Source: Acidobacteriota bacterium
GTDB lineage: Bacteria > Acidobacteriota > Terriglobia > Terriglobales > Acidobacteriaceae
NCBI GenBank assembly: GCA_019351975.1
Contig: JABBOG010000018.1
Span: forward strand, 19,462 to 63,948
DNA length: 44,487 nucleotides
Direction: 5' to 3'
This document shows, piece by piece, positions 3,416-11,515 of this stretch. Numbering within the stretch: position 1 is the stretch's first letter; each line of letters starts with the position of its first letter. The notes under the pieces were generated by a model. That model saw nothing but the letters and a program-made list of their open reading frames with translations, was not told where the DNA came from and searched no databases. Both the position numbers and the translations under genes were made by a program.

Positions 3416-3657
3416 ATTGATTCAAGTGTAGGCGCGATTGTTGCGGTGGCATACGGTCGGACTTTCATGGAATCGAATGGAGCGGTAACGTCGGCACGCA
3501 ATCTTGCATCCAGTTTGTACAAATCCTCGTCATATAAGTGCTAAGGAAGAAGAAATTCAACCTGCTGCAAAAGAGGTCATGGTTTAGGTAGTCCGAGGAT
3601 AGTTCAACGGAAGTGCCGATATTCAGGAAGAGCGAATCATTTATCAGGAGTCAAACG

Positions 3658-4758
3658 ATGCATAGAATTGTCAATCTATCCGATCATGGACGCCGCAGTC
3701 CGAGCGGCTTTTACAGTTTCGCGCAGCGCGCGGCGACGCTTGTTGCGATGTTGGGCGCTGGAGTCGCGGTCATGGGAGCTCAGACGCCGGTCGCTGCAAC
3801 GACGCAGACGGGCCTGCAGCAGAATAGCGCTCAGGTGCGCCCGCTGGTGGATTTCAAGGTTCCGGCCGGGGGTGCTTTGTTTTCAACGAGTGCGAGTGAG
3901 GATGATGCTTCATCAGAGGCGTCCGTGGTTTCTCCTCTGCCAGATTTTGCAGGTATGGTGCCCTATGCGGGAGGGCGTCAACAGGCAAACCGTGCGCGGT
4001 ACCGGTCCGGGTTTACCAATGATGATGGGTCGAACAAGCTTATGGGTTATGTCGGCGCGGGTGCTGGAGTACCTGTGGGTTGGACAGATAAATACTGGAC
4101 GCCGGGATACGCGATACAGGCTGGTGGCGGGTGGCAGTTCAGCAAGAAGTTTGCGGTGCCGATCGAGTTTGATTTCGATCACTTTGGGTTGACCTCAGGG
4201 AATTTACAGAACCAGACGACGGTGTATGACAAGTTGTTTGGGAAGGGCGCTGTGCGGGGCATTCTGGATGGCGGCAGCCATGTGATGTCGTTATCGATTG
4301 ATCCGACATACAGCTTCCGTACGAATGATGCGCTGGGGGCGTATGTGGTTGGCGGTGTGGGTTTCTACCACAAGATTACTGACTTCAACGTGCCGTCGCT
4401 GGCTTCGTTCTGCGGTGGTGGTTATGGCGTTGGCGGCTACGGTTACGGCTACGGAGGGTTTGGCTACGGCGGCTACGGCTATGGAGGTTGCGGCACGTAC
4501 GTAGCGAATCAGTCGATTGATAAGTACACGTCCAATGCTCCAGGATTCAATGGCGGCGTAGGTGTGACGTATCGCTTCTCACGCTTCTCTCATGAGCAGC
4601 TTTATGCTGAGATGCGCTACGTGTTTGTCGATGATTCGTATCGGCCTGGAATCACGATCTACAACGACAATACGATTACTGCGACGACCACCAACTTCTA
4701 TCCGGCGAATAGCGAGCACACGGGCTATTTCCCGTTCAAGGTTGGTATTCGGTTTTAG
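3658..4758 (+). CDS. Outer-membrane beta-barrel protein with Gly/Tyr-rich loop
   Basis: The 366-residue exported protein has a long N-terminus, with a hydrophobic signal core near residues 25-42 and a likely cleavage after MGAQ or VAA. From about residue 125 on, the sequence alternates short amphipathic strands with Gly/Asn/Asp turns (YVGAGAGVPVGW, GGGWQFSKKFAVPIEFDFDHFG, YVVGGVGFYHK), and it ends in an aromatic residue (KVGIRF), as expected for an outer-membrane barrel inserted by BamA. A Gly/Tyr repeat bounded by Cys252 and Cys278 interrupts the barrel. The start ATG at 3658 has AGGAG seven bases upstream; an in-frame GTG at 3613 lacks this. A strong terminator follows. It resembles OmpA-like/porin-like barrels, but the function is unknown. 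Confidence 0.75.
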   Translation: MHRIVNLSDHGRRSPSGFYSFAQRAATLVAMLGAGVAVMGAQTPVAATTQTGLQQNSAQVRPLVDFKVPAGGALFSTSASEDDASSEASVVSPLPDFAGMVPYAGGRQQANRARYRSGFTNDDGSNKLMGYVGAGAGVPVGWTDKYWTPGYAIQAGGGWQFSKKFAVPIEFDFDHFGLTSGNLQNQTTVYDKLFGKGAVRGILDGGSHVMSLSIDPTYSFRTNDALGAYVVGGVGFYHKITDFNVPSLASFCGGGYGVGGYGYGYGGFGYGGYGYGGCGTYVANQSIDKYTSNAPGFNGGVGVTYRFSRFSHEQLYAEMRYVFVDDSYRPGITIYNDNTITATTTNFYPANSEHTGYFPFKVGIRF

Positions 4759-4888: not shown

Positions 4889-6511
4889 TTAGATGCCCAT
4901 GGGATAGGGCTTTTCGTGGAGGCCTTCGCCTTGGGAGCTTCGGCGCTCGAAGAGGCCTTGAAAGATGCTGAGCAGGCCGGTGTACCAGTAGCCGAGGACG
5001 AAGAGAAGAAGGAACGGCACCGTGAAGTAGTTTTCGGTGGTGATGGCGTACCAGACGGTGGCGGCAAAATAGCAGCCGATGGCGAGTTCGATCCAGGGAA
5101 TGATGCCGAGTCGCTTGCGGTATTTTTTTGCGTGGGACTTTTCACCTTTCTTCTGGACGGCATATTTTGGCGTGCGGGCGAAGGCGGTCTTGATGCCGAG
5201 GAGGGCTTCCATGACGGCCTTGGTGTTGGTGATGGTGAGGCCAACGCCGAGTGCCATGAGGAACGGCAGATAGAGGAAGGTCTTGTACCAGCTGCGGGGG
5301 AAGAGCTCCTTCTGGCTGACGAGATAAAAGCTGGAGACGGACATGGTGGAGGCCATGAAGAGAGGCAGGTCGATGAGCAGCATCTGCAGCGGCCCCTGCC
5401 AGGAGCGGATGATCATGGCGGGCATGAGGAGCACGGAGAGCACGATCATGAGCGGGTAGCTAATGTTGGCGGTAAGGTGATACCAGGCTTCGAGCTTCTG
5501 ATGCTTGGAGATGTTGGAGCGCAGGATGCCGGGGAGGCTCTTTTTGCCGACCTGAATGAGGCCCTTGGCCCAGCGCGCCTGCTGAGTTTTGAAGGCTGTC
5601 ATCTCTATGGGCAGCTCGGCGGGGCACTCGACATCCTGAAGGTATTTGAACTTCCAGCCTTTGAGCTGGGCTCGGTAGCTGAGGTCGGTGTCTTCAGTGA
5701 GGGTATCGTGCTCCCATCCCCCGGCTTCGTCGATGGCCTGACGACGCCACATGCCGGCGGTGCCGTTGAAGTTGAAGAAGACGCCGGCGCGAGAGCGGCC
5801 ACCGTGCTCGAGGACGAAGTGGCCGTCGAGGAGGATGGCTTCGACCTGGGTGAGGAAGCTGTAGTTGCGGTTGAGGTGCGTCCAGCGGGTTTGGACCATG
5901 CCGACGCCGGGTTCGGCGAAGTGATGGACGACTTTGCGGAGCCAGTCGGGGGGAGGGACGAAGTCGGCGTCGAAGATGGCGATGAGCTCGCCGCGGGAGG
6001 AGCGGAGACCCTCTTCGAGGGCTCCGGCTTTGAATCCGTGGCGGTTCGTGCGATGAAGGTAAAAGACGGGTTGTGGAGCGAGGCCCTGAGTTCCGGCAGC
6101 GAAGCGGGCGACCATGGCGGAGGCGACGCTGACGGTTTCGTCGGTGGAGTCGTCGAGGAGCTGGATTTCGAAGCGGTCGCGTGGGTAGTCGAGGCGGCAG
6201 CAGGCATCCATGAGACGCTGTATGACGAACTGTTCGTTGTAGATGGGAAGCTGGATGGTGACGAAGGGGAGTTCGTCTTCCGCGAAGGTGGCTGCGGGCT
6301 GATCGGAGTGGGCTTCGTTGCGCTTGTTGCGGTAGTAGAGCCAGACGAGCTGATAGCGGTGGAGGCCGTAAAAGGCGAGGATGAGCATCACCAGAAAGTA
6401 GGGGACGAGAAGGCTGACGTCGAAGGCGTTCCAGCGATAGGCGTTGCGGAAGGTGTGATCCGCGTAGTGGGTCTTCCAATAATGGCCCAGGCCGCGCGAG
6501 GTGATGAGCAT
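4889..6511 (-). CDS. Processive family-2 glycosyltransferase (cellulose/mannan synthase-like)
   Basis: This is a membrane-bound inverting glycosyltransferase that should polymerise a beta-linked polysaccharide from a nucleotide sugar; the sugar cannot be told from sequence. The 540-residue protein has an N-terminal transmembrane segment (about 31-50) and a cytosolic GT-A domain with DDS at 120-122, the metal-binding DAD at 181-183, the catalytic-base TED at 272-274 and the acceptor-site QQARW at 310-314. At least four C-terminal membrane segments follow between about 345 and 525. The QxxRW motif marks the processive cellulose/mannan/hyaluronan synthase group. There is no PilZ domain and there are no bcs neighbours. 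The start ATG at 6509-6511 fits the family N-terminus. It lies 126 bases downstream of the MqnC-like gene, in the same direction, so co-transcription is possible. Confidence 0.85.
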   Translation of the reverse strand: MLITSRGLGHYWKTHYADHTFRNAYRWNAFDVSLLVPYFLVMLILAFYGLHRYQLVWLYYRNKRNEAHSDQPAATFAEDELPFVTIQLPIYNEQFVIQRLMDACCRLDYPRDRFEIQLLDDSTDETVSVASAMVARFAAGTQGLAPQPVFYLHRTNRHGFKAGALEEGLRSSRGELIAIFDADFVPPPDWLRKVVHHFAEPGVGMVQTRWTHLNRNYSFLTQVEAILLDGHFVLEHGGRSRAGVFFNFNGTAGMWRRQAIDEAGGWEHDTLTEDTDLSYRAQLKGWKFKYLQDVECPAELPIEMTAFKTQQARWAKGLIQVGKKSLPGILRSNISKHQKLEAWYHLTANISYPLMIVLSVLLMPAMIIRSWQGPLQMLLIDLPLFMASTMSVSSFYLVSQKELFPRSWYKTFLYLPFLMALGVGLTITNTKAVMEALLGIKTAFARTPKYAVQKKGEKSHAKKYRKRLGIIPWIELAIGCYFAATVWYAITTENYFTVPFLLLFVLGYWYTGLLSIFQGLFERRSSQGEGLHEKPYPMGI

Positions 6512-6637: not shown

Positions 6638-7585
6638 CTAGTTCAGAAACATGGTGCGGTAGAGCGCGTCTCGCTGAACGGGCTTGAAGCCGGCTTCGCG
6701 GATGATGCGGCGAAGCTCTTCTTCGGTGGCACCGCCGGGCTTGTTGAGATGATCTTCGAGGAGCGCGGTGCCGACGTCGTTGGCGCCGAAACGGAGGCTC
6801 ATCTGGAGGACCTTGAGACCTTGCGTCGGCCAGGAGGCTTGCAGGCTGGGGATGTTGTCGAGGTAGAGGCGACTGACGGCGAGGGTCGTGAGGTACTCGA
6901 CGGCGGTGGGCTCGGAGGTATTGGGCGGGAGGATGGCAACGCCTGAGTGTGCTGTCAGCGGCGTGAAGGCGGTAAAGCCGCCGGTTTCCTGCTGCAGGGA
7001 GCGGAGGATTTCGAGATGGTCGATGCGATCGGTGATGGTCTCGCCGACGCCGAAGATCATGGTCGCCTTGGTGGGCAGACCTAGCTGATGGGCGGTGCGG
7101 TGGACGTCGACCCACTCTGCGGTGGTACATCTTTCGGGGACGGCGCGCTTGCGGATCTCGTCATTGAAGATGACGGCGGAACCGGCGATCGAATCGAGGC
7201 CGGCATCGCGAAGGCGGGCGATGATGTCGCGCAGCGAGAGGTGCGATGCAGCTACGAGCTTGAGAATCTGCGTGGCCGATACGCCGTGCAGCTGAGTTTC
7301 TGGAAAGCGCTGCTTCAAACCTTTGAAGATCGACTCGTAGTGGTCGAGGGTGACCTGCTGCGGAAGGGTGTCTGAGAGGAGCAGGCCAGTCGCGCCCATG
7401 TCTATAGACTTGCGGGCGCTGGCGCAGGCTTTTTCGAGATCTGAGCAGTCGACGAGGCGGGCGATAGTGTAGGTGACGACGTTTTCGGGGTGGAGAGAGC
7501 GGCGGAGGGCGTCGGCCTCCATGCCGATGCCGATGAGGTCGTCGGAGGCGAAGCAGTCAAGGGCTTGCTGGCGTGTGATACCCAT
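6638..7585 (-). CDS. MqnC-like protein lacking the radical-SAM cluster segment
   Basis: The 315-residue protein aligns along almost its full length with dehypoxanthine futalosine cyclase MqnC of the menaquinone futalosine pathway: HPENVVTYTIAR at 32-43, then LKQRFP, LHGVSATQI, LRDAGLDSI, QETGGFTAF, LDNIPSLQASW, FGANDVGT and AGFKPVQRDALYR. In genuine MqnC, TFxVxR is followed at once by INYTNVC and the CxxxCxxC cluster motif. Here R43 runs straight into LVDCSDLEKAC, so roughly 25-30 residues, including all three cluster cysteines, are absent. The later QGG SAM-contact motif is also replaced, by SDTLPQ (71-76). The nucleotide reading is clean, with no frameshift. It should not perform radical-SAM chemistry. 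It starts nine bases after the hemY stop, so it is part of the heme operon. Its role is unknown. Confidence 0.85.
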   Translation of the reverse strand: MGITRQQALDCFASDDLIGIGMEADALRRSLHPENVVTYTIARLVDCSDLEKACASARKSIDMGATGLLLSDTLPQQVTLDHYESIFKGLKQRFPETQLHGVSATQILKLVAASHLSLRDIIARLRDAGLDSIAGSAVIFNDEIRKRAVPERCTTAEWVDVHRTAHQLGLPTKATMIFGVGETITDRIDHLEILRSLQQETGGFTAFTPLTAHSGVAILPPNTSEPTAVEYLTTLAVSRLYLDNIPSLQASWPTQGLKVLQMSLRFGANDVGTALLEDHLNKPGGATEEELRRIIREAGFKPVQRDALYRTMFLN

Positions 7586-7594
7586 GGAGCGATT

Positions 7595-9055
7595 TTATCC
7601 TTTGGCCGGAACGAGGGAGCGGACGGCGGAGCGGGCGTCGCGGATGAGGTCGGGAAGGCCGACGCCGCGGTAGCCGTTGCCGAGGAGGGTGAGGCCGCCG
7701 AGGGCGCGGATGTGGTCGTCGAGCTGGGCGATGCGATCGGCGTGGCCGACCTCGTATTGGGGGAGACTGCGGGGCCAGCGCTCGACGGCGGTGAGGCAAG
7801 GGTCGGGTTGGGGGAGAGGGCCGAGGATGTTGTCGAGCTGAGCGAAGGCGGCGGCGGCAATGGCGGCGTCGGTTTGCGGGGCAAGGAAGTCGGCGCTGGG
7901 ACCTCCGAAGAAGACGCGGAGGATGCGTGCACCCGGGGGCGCGCGGTGGGGGAATTTTTGATCGACGAAGGTGGTTGCGAGGAGCTGGTGGTGGGGGTTT
8001 GAAGCGCCGGACTGAGGGACGAGAAAGCCGAAGCCGGGAGGCACGGTGAAGGCGGATGCAGTGCTCGCCGGCCAGCAGAGGGCGGCGAGCACTGCGGAGC
8101 TGGCGGTCTGCGGGATAAGGCCGGGGATGGAGGCGTCGCGCGGCGCTAGGAGGGTACGCGTGGCGTCGATGGGCGTGGCAAGGAAGATGTGGTGGAAGTG
8201 GCGCTTGCTCTTGCCGGGCCTACCTTTGACGGCGGGCGTGGAGGTGCGGAGGCACCAGGTATTGCCTTCGCGCTTGATGGAGAGAGCGGGGTGGTTGCGG
8301 TGGATGCGTTCTGGAGGAAGTTGGGCTGTGATGGCTTCGATGAGCGAGCCGAGGCCGTGGCGCAGGGTGGTGAAGATGGGCTGCTGAGGTTTGTTTCCGC
8401 GCGCAAGTGCCTTGGCTTGAAGGGCTGCGATGAGCGAGCCATGCTCGCGCTCCATGGCGACGAAGGCGGGCATAACGGAGTTGACGCTAAGGAGGTTGAC
8501 GTCGCCGCCGAAGACGCCGGAGAGAAGTGGGGCACCGATCTTCTGGAGGACTTCGTCGCCGAAGTGGCGGCGGACGAAGGTGGCGACGGACTCGTCGGAG
8601 GTGTGGGCGGAGGATCTAAGTTGTTCAGCGCGCGTGAGTTCGGCGGCGTAGGCGGAGCGGGCTTCGGTGCTGAAGAGAGGCGAGTGTTCGAGGGAGGCGA
8701 GATCTTCGGGGACCATCATACGCATGCCGTCGGGCATGGGGAGGAGATGGTTGTCGATGAGGATATAGGTCTTGCGGGTGGCGTCGTTGCTGTAGATGAG
8801 CTGCTGTTCCAGGCCGAGTTCGATCGCGAGGTCGCGCGCCCAGGGTTTTTCGGAGACCCAGCCGTCGGGACCGCCTTCGAGGACGAATTCGCCGTCGTTC
8901 GTGGTTTTGCGGGCGGTCTTAACGGTACCGCCGACGCGATTACTGGCTTCGTAGAGCTGCCAGTCGAGGTCGGCACCGCGCTTGCGTGCGAGCTCCAGCT
9001 CATAGGCCGCGGAAAGGCCGGCGATGCCTGCTCCGACGATGGCGAAGCGCTTCAT
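7595..9055 (-). CDS. hemY: Protoporphyrinogen/coproporphyrinogen oxidase
   Basis: This oxygen-dependent FAD flavoprotein oxidises a porphyrinogen to the aromatic porphyrin in late heme synthesis. The 486-residue product starts with the FAD-binding Rossmann motif GAGIAGLSAAYEL and continues with NRVGGTVKT and EGGPDGWVSEKP. The middle has GVFGGDVNLLSV, and the C-terminus has the second FAD motif GGLTLLGNGYRGVGLPD, all typical of HemY/CgoX. The true start is the ATG at 9053-9055. The frame stays open far upstream, but that part is only the shadow of hemH. The start overlaps the hemH stop as ATGA, so translation is probably coupled. Whether it works on protoporphyrinogen or coproporphyrinogen depends on whether the genome has hemQ/chdC, which is not in the window. 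Confidence 0.93.
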   Translation of the reverse strand: MKRFAIVGAGIAGLSAAYELELARKRGADLDWQLYEASNRVGGTVKTARKTTNDGEFVLEGGPDGWVSEKPWARDLAIELGLEQQLIYSNDATRKTYILIDNHLLPMPDGMRMMVPEDLASLEHSPLFSTEARSAYAAELTRAEQLRSSAHTSDESVATFVRRHFGDEVLQKIGAPLLSGVFGGDVNLLSVNSVMPAFVAMEREHGSLIAALQAKALARGNKPQQPIFTTLRHGLGSLIEAITAQLPPERIHRNHPALSIKREGNTWCLRTSTPAVKGRPGKSKRHFHHIFLATPIDATRTLLAPRDASIPGLIPQTASSAVLAALCWPASTASAFTVPPGFGFLVPQSGASNPHHQLLATTFVDQKFPHRAPPGARILRVFFGGPSADFLAPQTDAAIAAAAFAQLDNILGPLPQPDPCLTAVERWPRSLPQYEVGHADRIAQLDDHIRALGGLTLLGNGYRGVGLPDLIRDARSAVRSLVPAKG

Positions 9056-10146
9056 GATGCGGCGGCGACCGGTGTGGGACGGGGGCGCACGGGAGTGTCG
9101 GGAGGAGCGTTGGGATCGAGGCGTGTGGAGGGGCGGCTGAGTGCGTGGCGGATGGCGCGGATGAGGGTGGGTGAGTCGTTGAGGCTTGCGGCGCGCGAGA
9201 GCTGCATGCCGAGCGCGGCGGCCTGAGCCTTGAAGTCGATGTCGATGTCGTAGAGGATCTCGACGTGATCGCAGAGGAAGCCGACGGGCTGGAGGACGAC
9301 GGCTTTGTGGCCGGCTTCTGCGAGGGCCTTGAGGGTGTCGGGAACGGTGGGGCCGATCCAAGGAGCGCCGGCGATGCCCTGGCTCTGGAAGGCGAAGAAC
9401 CAGCCGTCGTCGGTGAGGCCGAGGGGGCGGAGGGCTTTGGCGATGGCGATGGCGGTCTGTTTGCACTCGACCGGATAGGGGTCGGGCTCCTGGGCTTGTC
9501 CGTAGTTCTGGATGCCGTCGGCGGGTACGGGCGCGCCGGGTCGGGCGGAGGGGCTGGCGGGGTTGCTGACGGTGCCGGACATGATGGTGCGGCAGGGGAC
9601 GGCGTGGGCGGTGAAGAGGATAGGGACGCGGGTCTGGGTGGCGGCGCAGGCTTCTGCCCAGGCGGGCCACATGCGCTCAGCGAAGGCCTGGGCGAGGAGC
9701 GGCTCGTCGGCCCAGCCGGCGATGAAGTCGACGGTGAAGCTGTCGCCGACGGCTTCCATGAGAGCGCGGCGGTAGAGGCCGGTGGAGGTGCGGGAGTTCT
9801 GGGGAGCGAGGCAGAGGACGCGTGCGTGCTGGATGCCGTCGGACTTCATCTGCGCGACGACGTCGGCGATGTAGGGGTGCCAGTTGCGCATGCCGACGTA
9901 GACGTTCTGGCCGAGGAGGTCGCTGAGCAGGCGGCCCTGGAGGAGGGTCCAGCGAGTGAGCGGTGGGCCGTCGGGGAGGGGCTCGTCGCGGAGGCCGATC
10001 TCGGCGTAGCGGTGCTGGAGTTCCTGCACGACTTCGGCGGGCATGGGGCGGCCGCCGGTGACCTTGTGCAGGTAGTCGGCCATCTGGCTGAGGGTGTCGG
10101 GCGTGCCGTGGGCGAGAAGAAGCGTTGCGGAGGTGTTATCGGACAT
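9052..10146 (-). CDS. hemH: Ferrochelatase
   Basis: It inserts ferrous iron into the porphyrin to give heme (or coproheme). The 364-residue protein carries the N-terminal LLAHGTPDTLSQM block and the YVGMRNWHPYIAD block. The catalytic histidine is His181 in FTAHAVP. A FQSQGIAGAPWIGPTV block follows, and the second catalytic acid is Glu296 in PVGFLCDHVEILYD. There is no C-terminal 2Fe-2S cysteine extension. Residues about 190-222 form a longer Pro/Gly-rich insert than in the compact Bacillus enzyme. The ATG at 10144-10146 lies inside the end of hemE, an 11-base overlap, and the gene ends with an ATGA overlap onto hemY. The order hemE-hemH-hemY matches the classic Bacillus subtilis operon. Confidence 0.94.
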   Translation of the reverse strand: MSDNTSATLLLAHGTPDTLSQMADYLHKVTGGRPMPAEVVQELQHRYAEIGLRDEPLPDGPPLTRWTLLQGRLLSDLLGQNVYVGMRNWHPYIADVVAQMKSDGIQHARVLCLAPQNSRTSTGLYRRALMEAVGDSFTVDFIAGWADEPLLAQAFAERMWPAWAEACAATQTRVPILFTAHAVPCRTIMSGTVSNPASPSARPGAPVPADGIQNYGQAQEPDPYPVECKQTAIAIAKALRPLGLTDDGWFFAFQSQGIAGAPWIGPTVPDTLKALAEAGHKAVVLQPVGFLCDHVEILYDIDIDFKAQAAALGMQLSRAASLNDSPTLIRAIRHALSRPSTRLDPNAPPDTPVRPRPTPVAAAS

Positions 10147-11302
10147 GGGTAGACTCCCCGGGGCGGGCTTGTGCTGAGGCTGCAGCGCCGAATTGCTTGA
10201 CCCATTCGACGACGCGGATGACGTTCTCGACGGGAGTTTCGGGGACGATGCCGTGGCCGAGGTTGAAGATGTGTCCGGGGCGACCGGCGGCGAGGTTGAG
10301 GACCTCACGAACGCGGGCTTCGAGGACGGCTTCGGGTGCGAAGAGGGTGATGGGGTCGAGGTTGCCCTGGACGGCACAGCCGGGGCCGACGGCGCGCCAG
10401 CCTTCGTCGAGGGGGATGCGCCAGTCGAGGCCGATGACGTCGGCGGTGGTCTCGCGCATGGAGGGGAGGAGCGAGGCGGTATCGACGCCGAAGTAGATGA
10501 CGGGGACGCCGAGGGCTTTGACGCGCTGGATGAGCTCGGTGGTGGGAGCGAGGCAGTATTGGCGGTAGTCCGCGACGGAGAGAGCGCCGGCCCAGGAGTC
10601 GAAGATCTGGATAACGTCGGCGCCGGCTTCGACCTGCTGCGCGGCGTAGGCGACGAGCACGGTGACGAGCTTCTCCATGAGGAGCGGCCATGCGGCGTCA
10701 CCGGCGTACATGAGCTTTTTGGTGTGGATGTAGTTGCGCGAGCTGCCGCCTTCGATCATGTAGCTGGCGAGGGTGAAGGGAGCGCCGCAGAAGCCGATGA
10801 TGCCGAGGTGGTCGCCGTCGTGGCGGGGAGCGGCGAAGTGGGCGGCAACTTTTTCGATGGCGTTGGCGACGTACTGGAGCTCGTCGACGCGGTCGGTGCG
10901 GAGGGACTGGATGTGTTCGAGGGAGCGGATGGGCGTGTGGACGACGGGGCCTTCGCCGGCGACGAACTCGAAGTCGAGACCCATGGGTGTGAAGGGAAGC
11001 AGAAGGTCGGCGAAGATAATGGCGGCGTCGACACCGAGGCGCTCGGCGGCGGTGATGGTGACTTCGGCGGCGATGTTGGGGGAGCGGCAGATTTCGAGCA
11101 GGGAGTGGTGCTTGCGGACGGCCATGTACTCGGGCATGTAGCGACCGGCCTGACGCAGAAACCAGACGGGTGTGCGGTCGACGGGCTGGCGGAGACAGGC
11201 GCGGATGAAGCGGCTGCTGCCTTCGGGATGCGAATCGAGGACGGCAGGGTGTTGTTCAGGCTGGATCAAAGTGGATGAAACTCCTGAAGTTAAGGGTAGC
11301 AT
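10136..11302 (-). CDS. hemE: Uroporphyrinogen decarboxylase
   Basis: It removes the four acetate carboxyls of uroporphyrinogen III to give coproporphyrinogen III. The 388-residue product shows the family signature RTPVWFLRQAGRYMPEY, then IFADLLLPFTPMGLDFEF, GFCGAPFTLASYMIEGG, QIFDSWAGALS, VIYFGVD, VQGNLDP and FNLGHGIVPETPVENV. The ATG at 11300-11302 gives an N-terminus about 30 residues longer than E. coli HemE and lacks a good ribosome-binding site. An in-frame TTG at codon 12 (11269) is preceded by AGGAG about ten bases upstream and could be the true start. This is the first gene of the operon hemE-hemH-hemY-mqnC-like. Its promoter should lie in the 213-base gap shared with the divergent pyrophosphatase gene. 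Confidence 0.95.
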   Translation of the reverse strand: MLPLTSGVSSTLIQPEQHPAVLDSHPEGSSRFIRACLRQPVDRTPVWFLRQAGRYMPEYMAVRKHHSLLEICRSPNIAAEVTITAAERLGVDAAIIFADLLLPFTPMGLDFEFVAGEGPVVHTPIRSLEHIQSLRTDRVDELQYVANAIEKVAAHFAAPRHDGDHLGIIGFCGAPFTLASYMIEGGSSRNYIHTKKLMYAGDAAWPLLMEKLVTVLVAYAAQQVEAGADVIQIFDSWAGALSVADYRQYCLAPTTELIQRVKALGVPVIYFGVDTASLLPSMRETTADVIGLDWRIPLDEGWRAVGPGCAVQGNLDPITLFAPEAVLEARVREVLNLAAGRPGHIFNLGHGIVPETPVENVIRVVEWVKQFGAAASAQARPGESTHVR

Positions 11303-11515
11303 CCGCGGTGGGGTTTTCAGGGTGTGCGTGAGATGCGGGAACGGGATGCTTTTGTGGGATGCATAGGCTGAAGCCGATTTGCGTGGGACATGGTAGCGGC
11401 GGGACGGTAGACTAGAAGGGGATGTCCATGCCGGCGAGATGCACGTTGGAGTTTGTAGCCGGAGCAGCGTCAGCCTGCACTTGAATCTTTGAGAGAAGAA
11501 GAGACACGAAACCTT

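Follow-up and report, generated by a model that had tools for sequence, protein, structure and literature searches.

The cyclisation of dehypoxanthine futalosine by MqnC requires an iron-sulfur loop. The aminofutalosine synthase MqnE (6xi9, 6xig) is the closest solved structure to the protein described here. Pseudoenzymes are usually met as single cases. A radical-SAM-family protein in a non-radical role has a parallel in HemW and in CgdH2 of C. jejuni, which have been described as heme carriers; they belong to another branch of the superfamily and, unlike the protein described here, keep the CxxxCxxC motif (PMC10320005). For an MqnC without the cluster we found no description in the open-access literature, searched by titles and the beginnings of abstracts, a body of text to which subscription papers mostly do not belong. 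The available parts of two futalosine papers (PMC3914697, PMC4746308) do not mention it.

We analyzed a window of 44,487 nucleotides from an acidobacterial genome (G000; the other G numbers denote the compared genomes). On its minus strand, positions 6638–7585 hold a frame of 315 codons plus stop with no internal stop codon, whose 315-residue product, a clusterless MqnC homologue, was characterized by reading of the frame, profile matches, alignment, omega and a predicted model. In a profile search it scored 267.5 bits against TIGR03699, the MqnC equivalog, below the cut-off of 428.1 for membership; the normal MqnC of G002 scored 478.5 bits. The best-matching stretch comprises residues 50–311, against positions 74–341 of the profile. 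CofH_C (PF19288) is matched at residues 203–311 with 67.5 bits (cut-off 27) and the radical SAM family (PF04055) with 36.8 bits (Pfam cut-off 29.5). The latter match reflects homology; without the cluster motif the protein is, judging from its sequence, not a radical enzyme of this kind. The HemW family profile was absent among the matches listed up to E = 10. The gene is a descendant of mqnC at the same locus, and the N-terminal cap, the second half of the barrel and the CofH_C region of MqnC are still recognisable in its product, which differs by having neither CxxxCxxC nor QGG and by lost pocket residues. The mqnC gene of Granulicella mallensis X5P3 shares 55% identity with the clusterless gene.

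Aligned with a normal MqnC of 348 residues from the same genus, the protein has NINYTNFCTEYCTFCAFYRPLKGKLAAEGYI missing or replaced in frame at codons 44–48 (7442–7456, minus strand), a net deletion of about 25 residues; the missing residues include CTEYCTFC. SDTLPQ (codons 71–76; 7358–7375, minus strand) stands in place of the normal QGG region, the surrounding MQGGIHP having been replaced. An MqnC homologue without CxxxCxxC and QGG is what the preliminary description of this locus had claimed, and the TIGR03699 match, the in-frame loss and SDTLPQ agree with it. CxxxCxxC is absent from the clusterless copies read in all 52 genomes, that of G000 among them. A sequencing error is improbable, given that 51 other genomes show the same loss and that there is clear purifying selection; the intact CxxxCxxC that had been named beforehand as the finding to speak against the claim is excluded.

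The loss extends further than had been noted. G000 has neither QGG nor PGGGAE, which we take to be motifs of the SAM/substrate site, and most of 49 clusterless copies are also without parts of PGGGAEI, of the W-FQP-TALGG loop and of ENVVKAAG. The second G of QGG is retained in 16% and the E of PGGGAE in 8% of these copies. Of the 235 residues that are invariant in normal copies, 70 persist in at least 90% of the 49 clusterless copies; most of these lie in the N-terminal cap, in the barrel's second half or at the C-terminus. The cap (codons 2–44; 7454–7582, minus strand), with helices at 5–13 and 17–31 followed by a strand at 36–45, has many residues retained in nearly all clusterless copies; the C-terminal region (codons 229–315; 6641–6901, minus strand) is part of the CofH_C match.

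Of the 28 genomes of the same genus (the first genus), 13 have a clusterless gene where mqnC would otherwise stand; so do 38 of the 62 genomes of a second genus and one genome of a third (G196). The 13 comprise ten complete frames, two frames interrupted by N (G013 and G005, with breaks that coincide with runs of 42 and 2 bases) and a form of 178 residues in G025. In every copy without assembly gaps the clusterless frame is open. The normal genes of the first genus comprise 11 read with the cluster motif and that of G015, which looks normal, is cut at a contig end with its motif region unread and was counted as normal; no mqnC was seen at the corresponding locus of G023, G011 and G012. The second genus has 38 clusterless frames, 20 normal genes with the motif and G472, where a normal gene is accompanied by the type II gene described below. 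Its two remaining normal genomes, G490 and G483, were counted from fragments about 93% identical to normal MqnC with the cluster region unseen, the former adjoining a run of N and the latter lying at the edge of the available sequence; G481 (63% complete) showed no mqnC at the locus. Among the best 80 of 261 named loci six were clusterless, and L323 was unreadable by the motif pattern. In G012 (C191, L251) hemY is followed directly by the gene of a family 2 glycosyltransferase (GT2), without mqnC in between; contig C224 of this genome (contamination 4%) carries a separate, possibly foreign set of MqnC/MqnE-like and MqnA/MqnD-like genes. In G360 (99% complete) neither query matched any gene of the MqnC/MqnE kind, though GT2 is there, a possible loss of the futalosine pathway.

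For ten clusterless genes of the first genus we obtained an omega of 0.070, with omega = 1 rejected (2dlnL 1278), and for 13 normal copies (11 of the same genus, two of other genera) an omega of 0.017; the divergences are large and a single omega across all branches is a coarse model. In the second genus 18 of the 38 clusterless copies gave 0.092 overall, five clusterless subsets covering 29 of the 38 gave 0.059, 0.075, 0.084, 0.122 and 0.167, and ten normal copies gave 0.019. Omega = 1 was rejected in every subset and every region tested. The clusterless gene is under purifying selection and not in decay: with omega at 0.07 and 0.09 in the main sets and omega = 1 rejected, it is a selected pseudoenzyme. 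Selection rather than decay had already been proposed, and the rejection of omega = 1 together with the open frames bears this out. The marks of a pseudogene, omega near 1 and frameshifts or stops in relatives, were not found, G025 being doubtful.

Within the gene, omega in the first genus is lowest for codons 271–290, 288–315, 229–270 and 117–150 (0.015–0.038) and highest for codons 45–76 (0.126) and 201–228 (0.112). In the second genus (18 of 38 copies) codons 229–315 have an omega of 0.019–0.024, which exceeds the 0.002–0.010 of these codons in normal copies, and all earlier regions 0.083–0.147. Since normal copies have values of 0.002–0.018 in those same regions of the first genus, every region is relaxed; for codons 229–315 the comparison is 0.015–0.037 in first-genus clusterless genes versus 0.002–0.010 in normal copies. 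Much of the barrel has an omega as low as that of codons 2–44 (0.051 in the first genus, 0.085 in the second), or lower. The tree length of codons 2–44 in the first genus is 4, versus 12–13 for codons 45–150, without such a dip in normal copies, and synonymous change may be slowed there too. Antisense coding was considered as a cause of the C-terminal conservation and rejected: any given antisense frame is open in at most 24 of 48 clusterless copies. Among 23 normal copies, 10 have one such frame open.

When the window's genome was searched with TIGR03699, three matches were obtained: MqnE (376 bits, and 496 bits to TIGR03700), a divergent protein termed type II (308 bits) and the clusterless gene (250 bits). 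A second canonical mqnC, which the preliminary description had proposed to look for, was not found in this genome above the cut-off of 428.1. Type II, with 367 residues and CVAQCDYC, is the only other MqnC candidate there, and two MqnA/MqnD-type genes are present. From its 308 bits we infer that type II may be a working cyclase and serve as MqnC. It is present in 14 of 28 genomes of the first genus (partial in G011), in 40 of 62 of the second (partial in G481) and in G196. Type II accompanies the clusterless gene, at a separate genomic site, in 51 of 52 genomes; in the one exception, G003 (93% complete, 350 contigs), type II was not found. Among the 35 genomes with normal mqnC (12 and 23 in the two genera, including the two fragments and the gene cut at a contig end) type II occurs only in G472 and is absent from the other 34. 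All 64 type II proteins extracted carry CxxxCxxC. Inspection by eye of the ORF lists of G000, G001, G004 and G017 recognised no mqn genes near type II. Within one type II match (G108:C3:787694-788743) a single in-frame TAG was flagged.

G472 (Granulicella sp. dw_53; L175) combines a cluster-bearing MqnC with type II in one genome. Its MqnC has an insertion, GKMTGKLAAED, after the cluster and a branch of 0.084 versus 0.027 in its neighbour. It is likely that this genome represents an intermediate state.

Type II also occurs outside these genera. In family f2, 12 of 14 genomes have it as their sole match of the MqnC/MqnE kind and two have no such match; MqnA/MqnD-type genes (PF02621) are present in this family. 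A search of nine f2 genomes for MqnE with TIGR03700 returned nothing beyond type II. In these f2 genomes (G037–G044, G047) and in G017, where MqnE was sought by its own profile, none was found, and type II alone among the MqnC/MqnE-like genes seen bears a cluster; the same holds for G004 and for G254 and G427 of family f76, where MqnE was sought only by the P0001 and type II queries. MqnA/MqnD-type genes were seen in f2, G017 and G004. In genomes without MqnE, more than one step may fall to type II, or else another enzyme may stand in for MqnE.

The number of origins of the clusterless form was assessed by trees. In a tree of MqnE and GT2 proteins (76 taxa) clusterless and normal lineages are interleaved, and forcing all 51 clusterless taxa together was rejected (p-AU 5e-5). 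Counting pure clusterless clades by eye on this tree gives about ten losses. Two narrower constraints were rejected by the AU test (0.025 and 0.005) and not by the SH test (0.0675 and 0.0504). The MqnC protein tree groups all clusterless copies (UFBoot 93), and 48 of 49 share the change of F to L at residue 191 of G000; unless convergent, the grouping and this change would fit one origin. At the nucleotide level the AU test rejects the clusterless grouping (p-AU 0.028 for codons 2–43, 0.007 for 291 shared codons) and does not reject descent by genus (0.60 and 0.145). A single origin, for which the protein tree and F191L speak, is thus rejected by the MqnE and GT2 tree and by the nucleotide AU test; the resident mqnC was converted in place at least twice and probably more often. 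In the type II tree, several inner nodes of which are weak (support 41–70), the first genus is nested within the second and G017 stands beside G170 (support 97). In the MqnC tree the clusterless copy of G017 groups with its own genus. The two trees thus place G017 differently, so the pair was not transferred together, at least there, and a joint transfer of type II and clusterless gene is not supported. Taken together, the trees indicate that type II moved sideways while the clusterless genes follow their own genus.

Our leading explanation, to which we assign a probability of roughly 0.45, is that the resident mqnC has turned into a pseudoenzyme with a retained non-catalytic function. As indicated by the trees and the pattern of presence and absence, a divergent, cluster-bearing type II would have arrived by horizontal transfer elsewhere in the genome. 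It would then have taken over the radical cyclisation of dehypoxanthine futalosine, as no other MqnC candidate with a cluster is left in the window's genome, and the pseudoenzyme probably arose at this takeover. The resident mqnC has lost its cluster loop together with the QGG region and numerous residues of the pocket, in at least two independent events and perhaps in about ten, and what remains of it is under purifying selection. The part that was kept would serve a second, non-catalytic function already present in the family's normal MqnC. This function would reside mainly in the C-terminal CofH_C region, perhaps with a share of the N-terminal cap, and would most likely be a protein-protein contact (scaffold, activity or stability partner) in menaquinone metabolism. 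The tight C-terminus and the looser pocket side argue moderately for a surface function over a pocket function. The case for the two ends is only moderate because all regions are relaxed in comparison with normal copies and the N-terminal omega is not specially low. The lack of mqnC at the locus of G012 implies that the second function is not indispensable everywhere.

The near-perfect association of the two genes could also mean that the clusterless protein is an obligate partner, type II working as a heteromer with a resident MqnC whose own active site has become dispensable. Co-occurrence in 51 of 52 genomes from different genome places fits such a dependence, as does G012, which is without type II and has also lost mqnC from the locus. 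Moreover, all type II genomes of the three genera that are at least 90% complete keep a clusterless or, in G472, a normal mqnC; the type II genomes without mqnC, G023, G011 and G481, are 84, 67 and 63% complete. However, type II occurs without such a partner in f2 (12 of 14 genomes) and f76 (both genomes in which it was found), and the MqnC and type II trees disagree on G017. We regard an obligate partnership as unlikely, though not remote.

A retained fold with an emptied barrel could have acquired a new function, binding a menaquinone precursor, heme or porphyrin or catalysing a non-radical reaction. An AlphaFold2 model of the clusterless protein reached a pLDDT of 87.6 and a pTM of 0.87, and its best PDB matches were the MqnE structures 6xig and 6xi9 (TM 0.88 by query length). 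The model thus predicts an MqnE/CofH-type fold. MqnE shares 26% identity with the clusterless protein in the structural alignment and has a separate gene in G000. The earlier proposal that a radical-SAM fold is kept without the cluster is supported by the pLDDT of this prediction, by the MqnE match and by selection. A confident model of this kind, and radical-SAM-family heme carriers such as HemW and C. jejuni CgdH2 (PMC10320005), would be in keeping with a new function. Several points speak against it: the regions flanking the lost loop vary among lineages in sequence and length and show the highest omega values; conservation does not extend to the heme neighbours; the cluster motif is present in HemW and CgdH2 (PMC10320005); and the matches listed up to E = 10 include no HemW family. 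Nothing in the analysis points to the putative binding of a tetrapyrrole or menaquinone precursor that had been suggested, and we consider a new function improbable.

It is very unlikely that the gene is redundant and slowly decaying, its frame being kept open by chance or because a misfolded product has to be avoided. In favour of decay, omega amounts to about four- to fivefold the value of normal MqnC in the main sets and to as much as ninefold in one subset. The strongly reduced form of G025, with a pLDDT of 54 in its predicted model, is probably decaying or else poorly modelled from 13 rows. Decay in close relatives had been named in advance as evidence against the proposed reading; it is possible in this one species, and in G012 mqnC is absent from the locus. 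Against decay stand the rejection of omega = 1 in all subsets and regions and frames that are open outside runs of N.

The position of the gene had led to the suggestion of a heme-linked role. In the window, the genes upstream on the minus strand are hemY (7595–9055), hemH (9052–10146) and hemE (10136–11458, start codon approximate), and the spacer between the hemY stop and the clusterless ATG is nine bases in G000, as had been noted. Downstream lies the GT2 gene (4889–6511, minus strand). A predicted outer-membrane-like protein with a glycine- and tyrosine-rich stretch, GYGYGGFGYGGYGYGG, is encoded at 3613–4758 on the plus strand. The order hemE-hemH-hemY-clusterless gene is found in G000, G020 and G013. 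A search for homologues with the same deletion in this context had been proposed; the loss recurs in 51 other genomes, but the context is not constant. HemY is missing beside the clusterless gene in G001, G008, G003, G026, G004 and G005, where only relatives of 36–38% identity occur elsewhere (in G004, pieces of 40% and 32%). In these six genomes hemY, missing between hemH and the clusterless gene, was possibly displaced too. In G021 and G014 no hem gene was detected over the 8.6 and 6.3 kb that precede the clusterless gene. In the same genus, hemE, hemH and hemY also precede the normal mqnC of G016, G018, G007 and G024, at distances of 0.06 to 2.5 kb from hemY and with GT2 inverted in G024; the neighbourhood is therefore inherited. 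GT2 lies near the clusterless gene at 12 of 13 loci of the first genus (the locus of G013 ends before it), at 36 of 38 of the second and in G196. It lies near normal mqnC as well, in the second genus at 8 of 10 normal loci.

The second genus has different neighbours. In the ten genomes examined for it, hemY lies on a different contig or no closer than 70 kb, and a VKOR gene (PF07884; e.g. L170:2147-3089) lies upstream of mqnC at 36 of the 38 clusterless loci and at all 10 normal loci examined, with a 133-residue protein without Pfam match between VKOR and mqnC at 27 of 38 and 10 of 10 loci, respectively. VKOR enzymes are quinone-linked, so that one may guess at a menaquinone context just as well as at heme. 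An inherited position in both genera proves neither a heme nor a menaquinone role. A heme-linked role read from the hemEHY operon, to which the gene order in three genomes and the nine-base spacer had pointed, thus keeps hardly any probability, as hem genes also precede normal mqnC and many clusterless copies are without heme neighbours.

In contrast to pseudoenzymes met as single cases, the same conversion is found here in three genera, nearly always together with one acquired gene, and 52 genomes show which parts were kept and which were lost; G472 adds a genome that holds the two genes and whose MqnC retains the cluster. Annotation is affected as well: despite its missing cluster, the clusterless gene scores above the Pfam radical-SAM cut-off, and type II, which is likely the real enzyme, falls below the curated MqnC cut-off. 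For the enzymes of the futalosine pathway a testable claim follows, namely that MqnC may do something besides its chemistry. More tentatively than the retained function itself, we propose that takeover by type II could have repeatedly and independently made the resident enzyme a conserved subunit without catalytic activity, belonging either to the new enzyme or to a complex that makes menaquinone. If this is true, it would be a natural repeated experiment exposing a structural second function hidden in every normal MqnC of the family.
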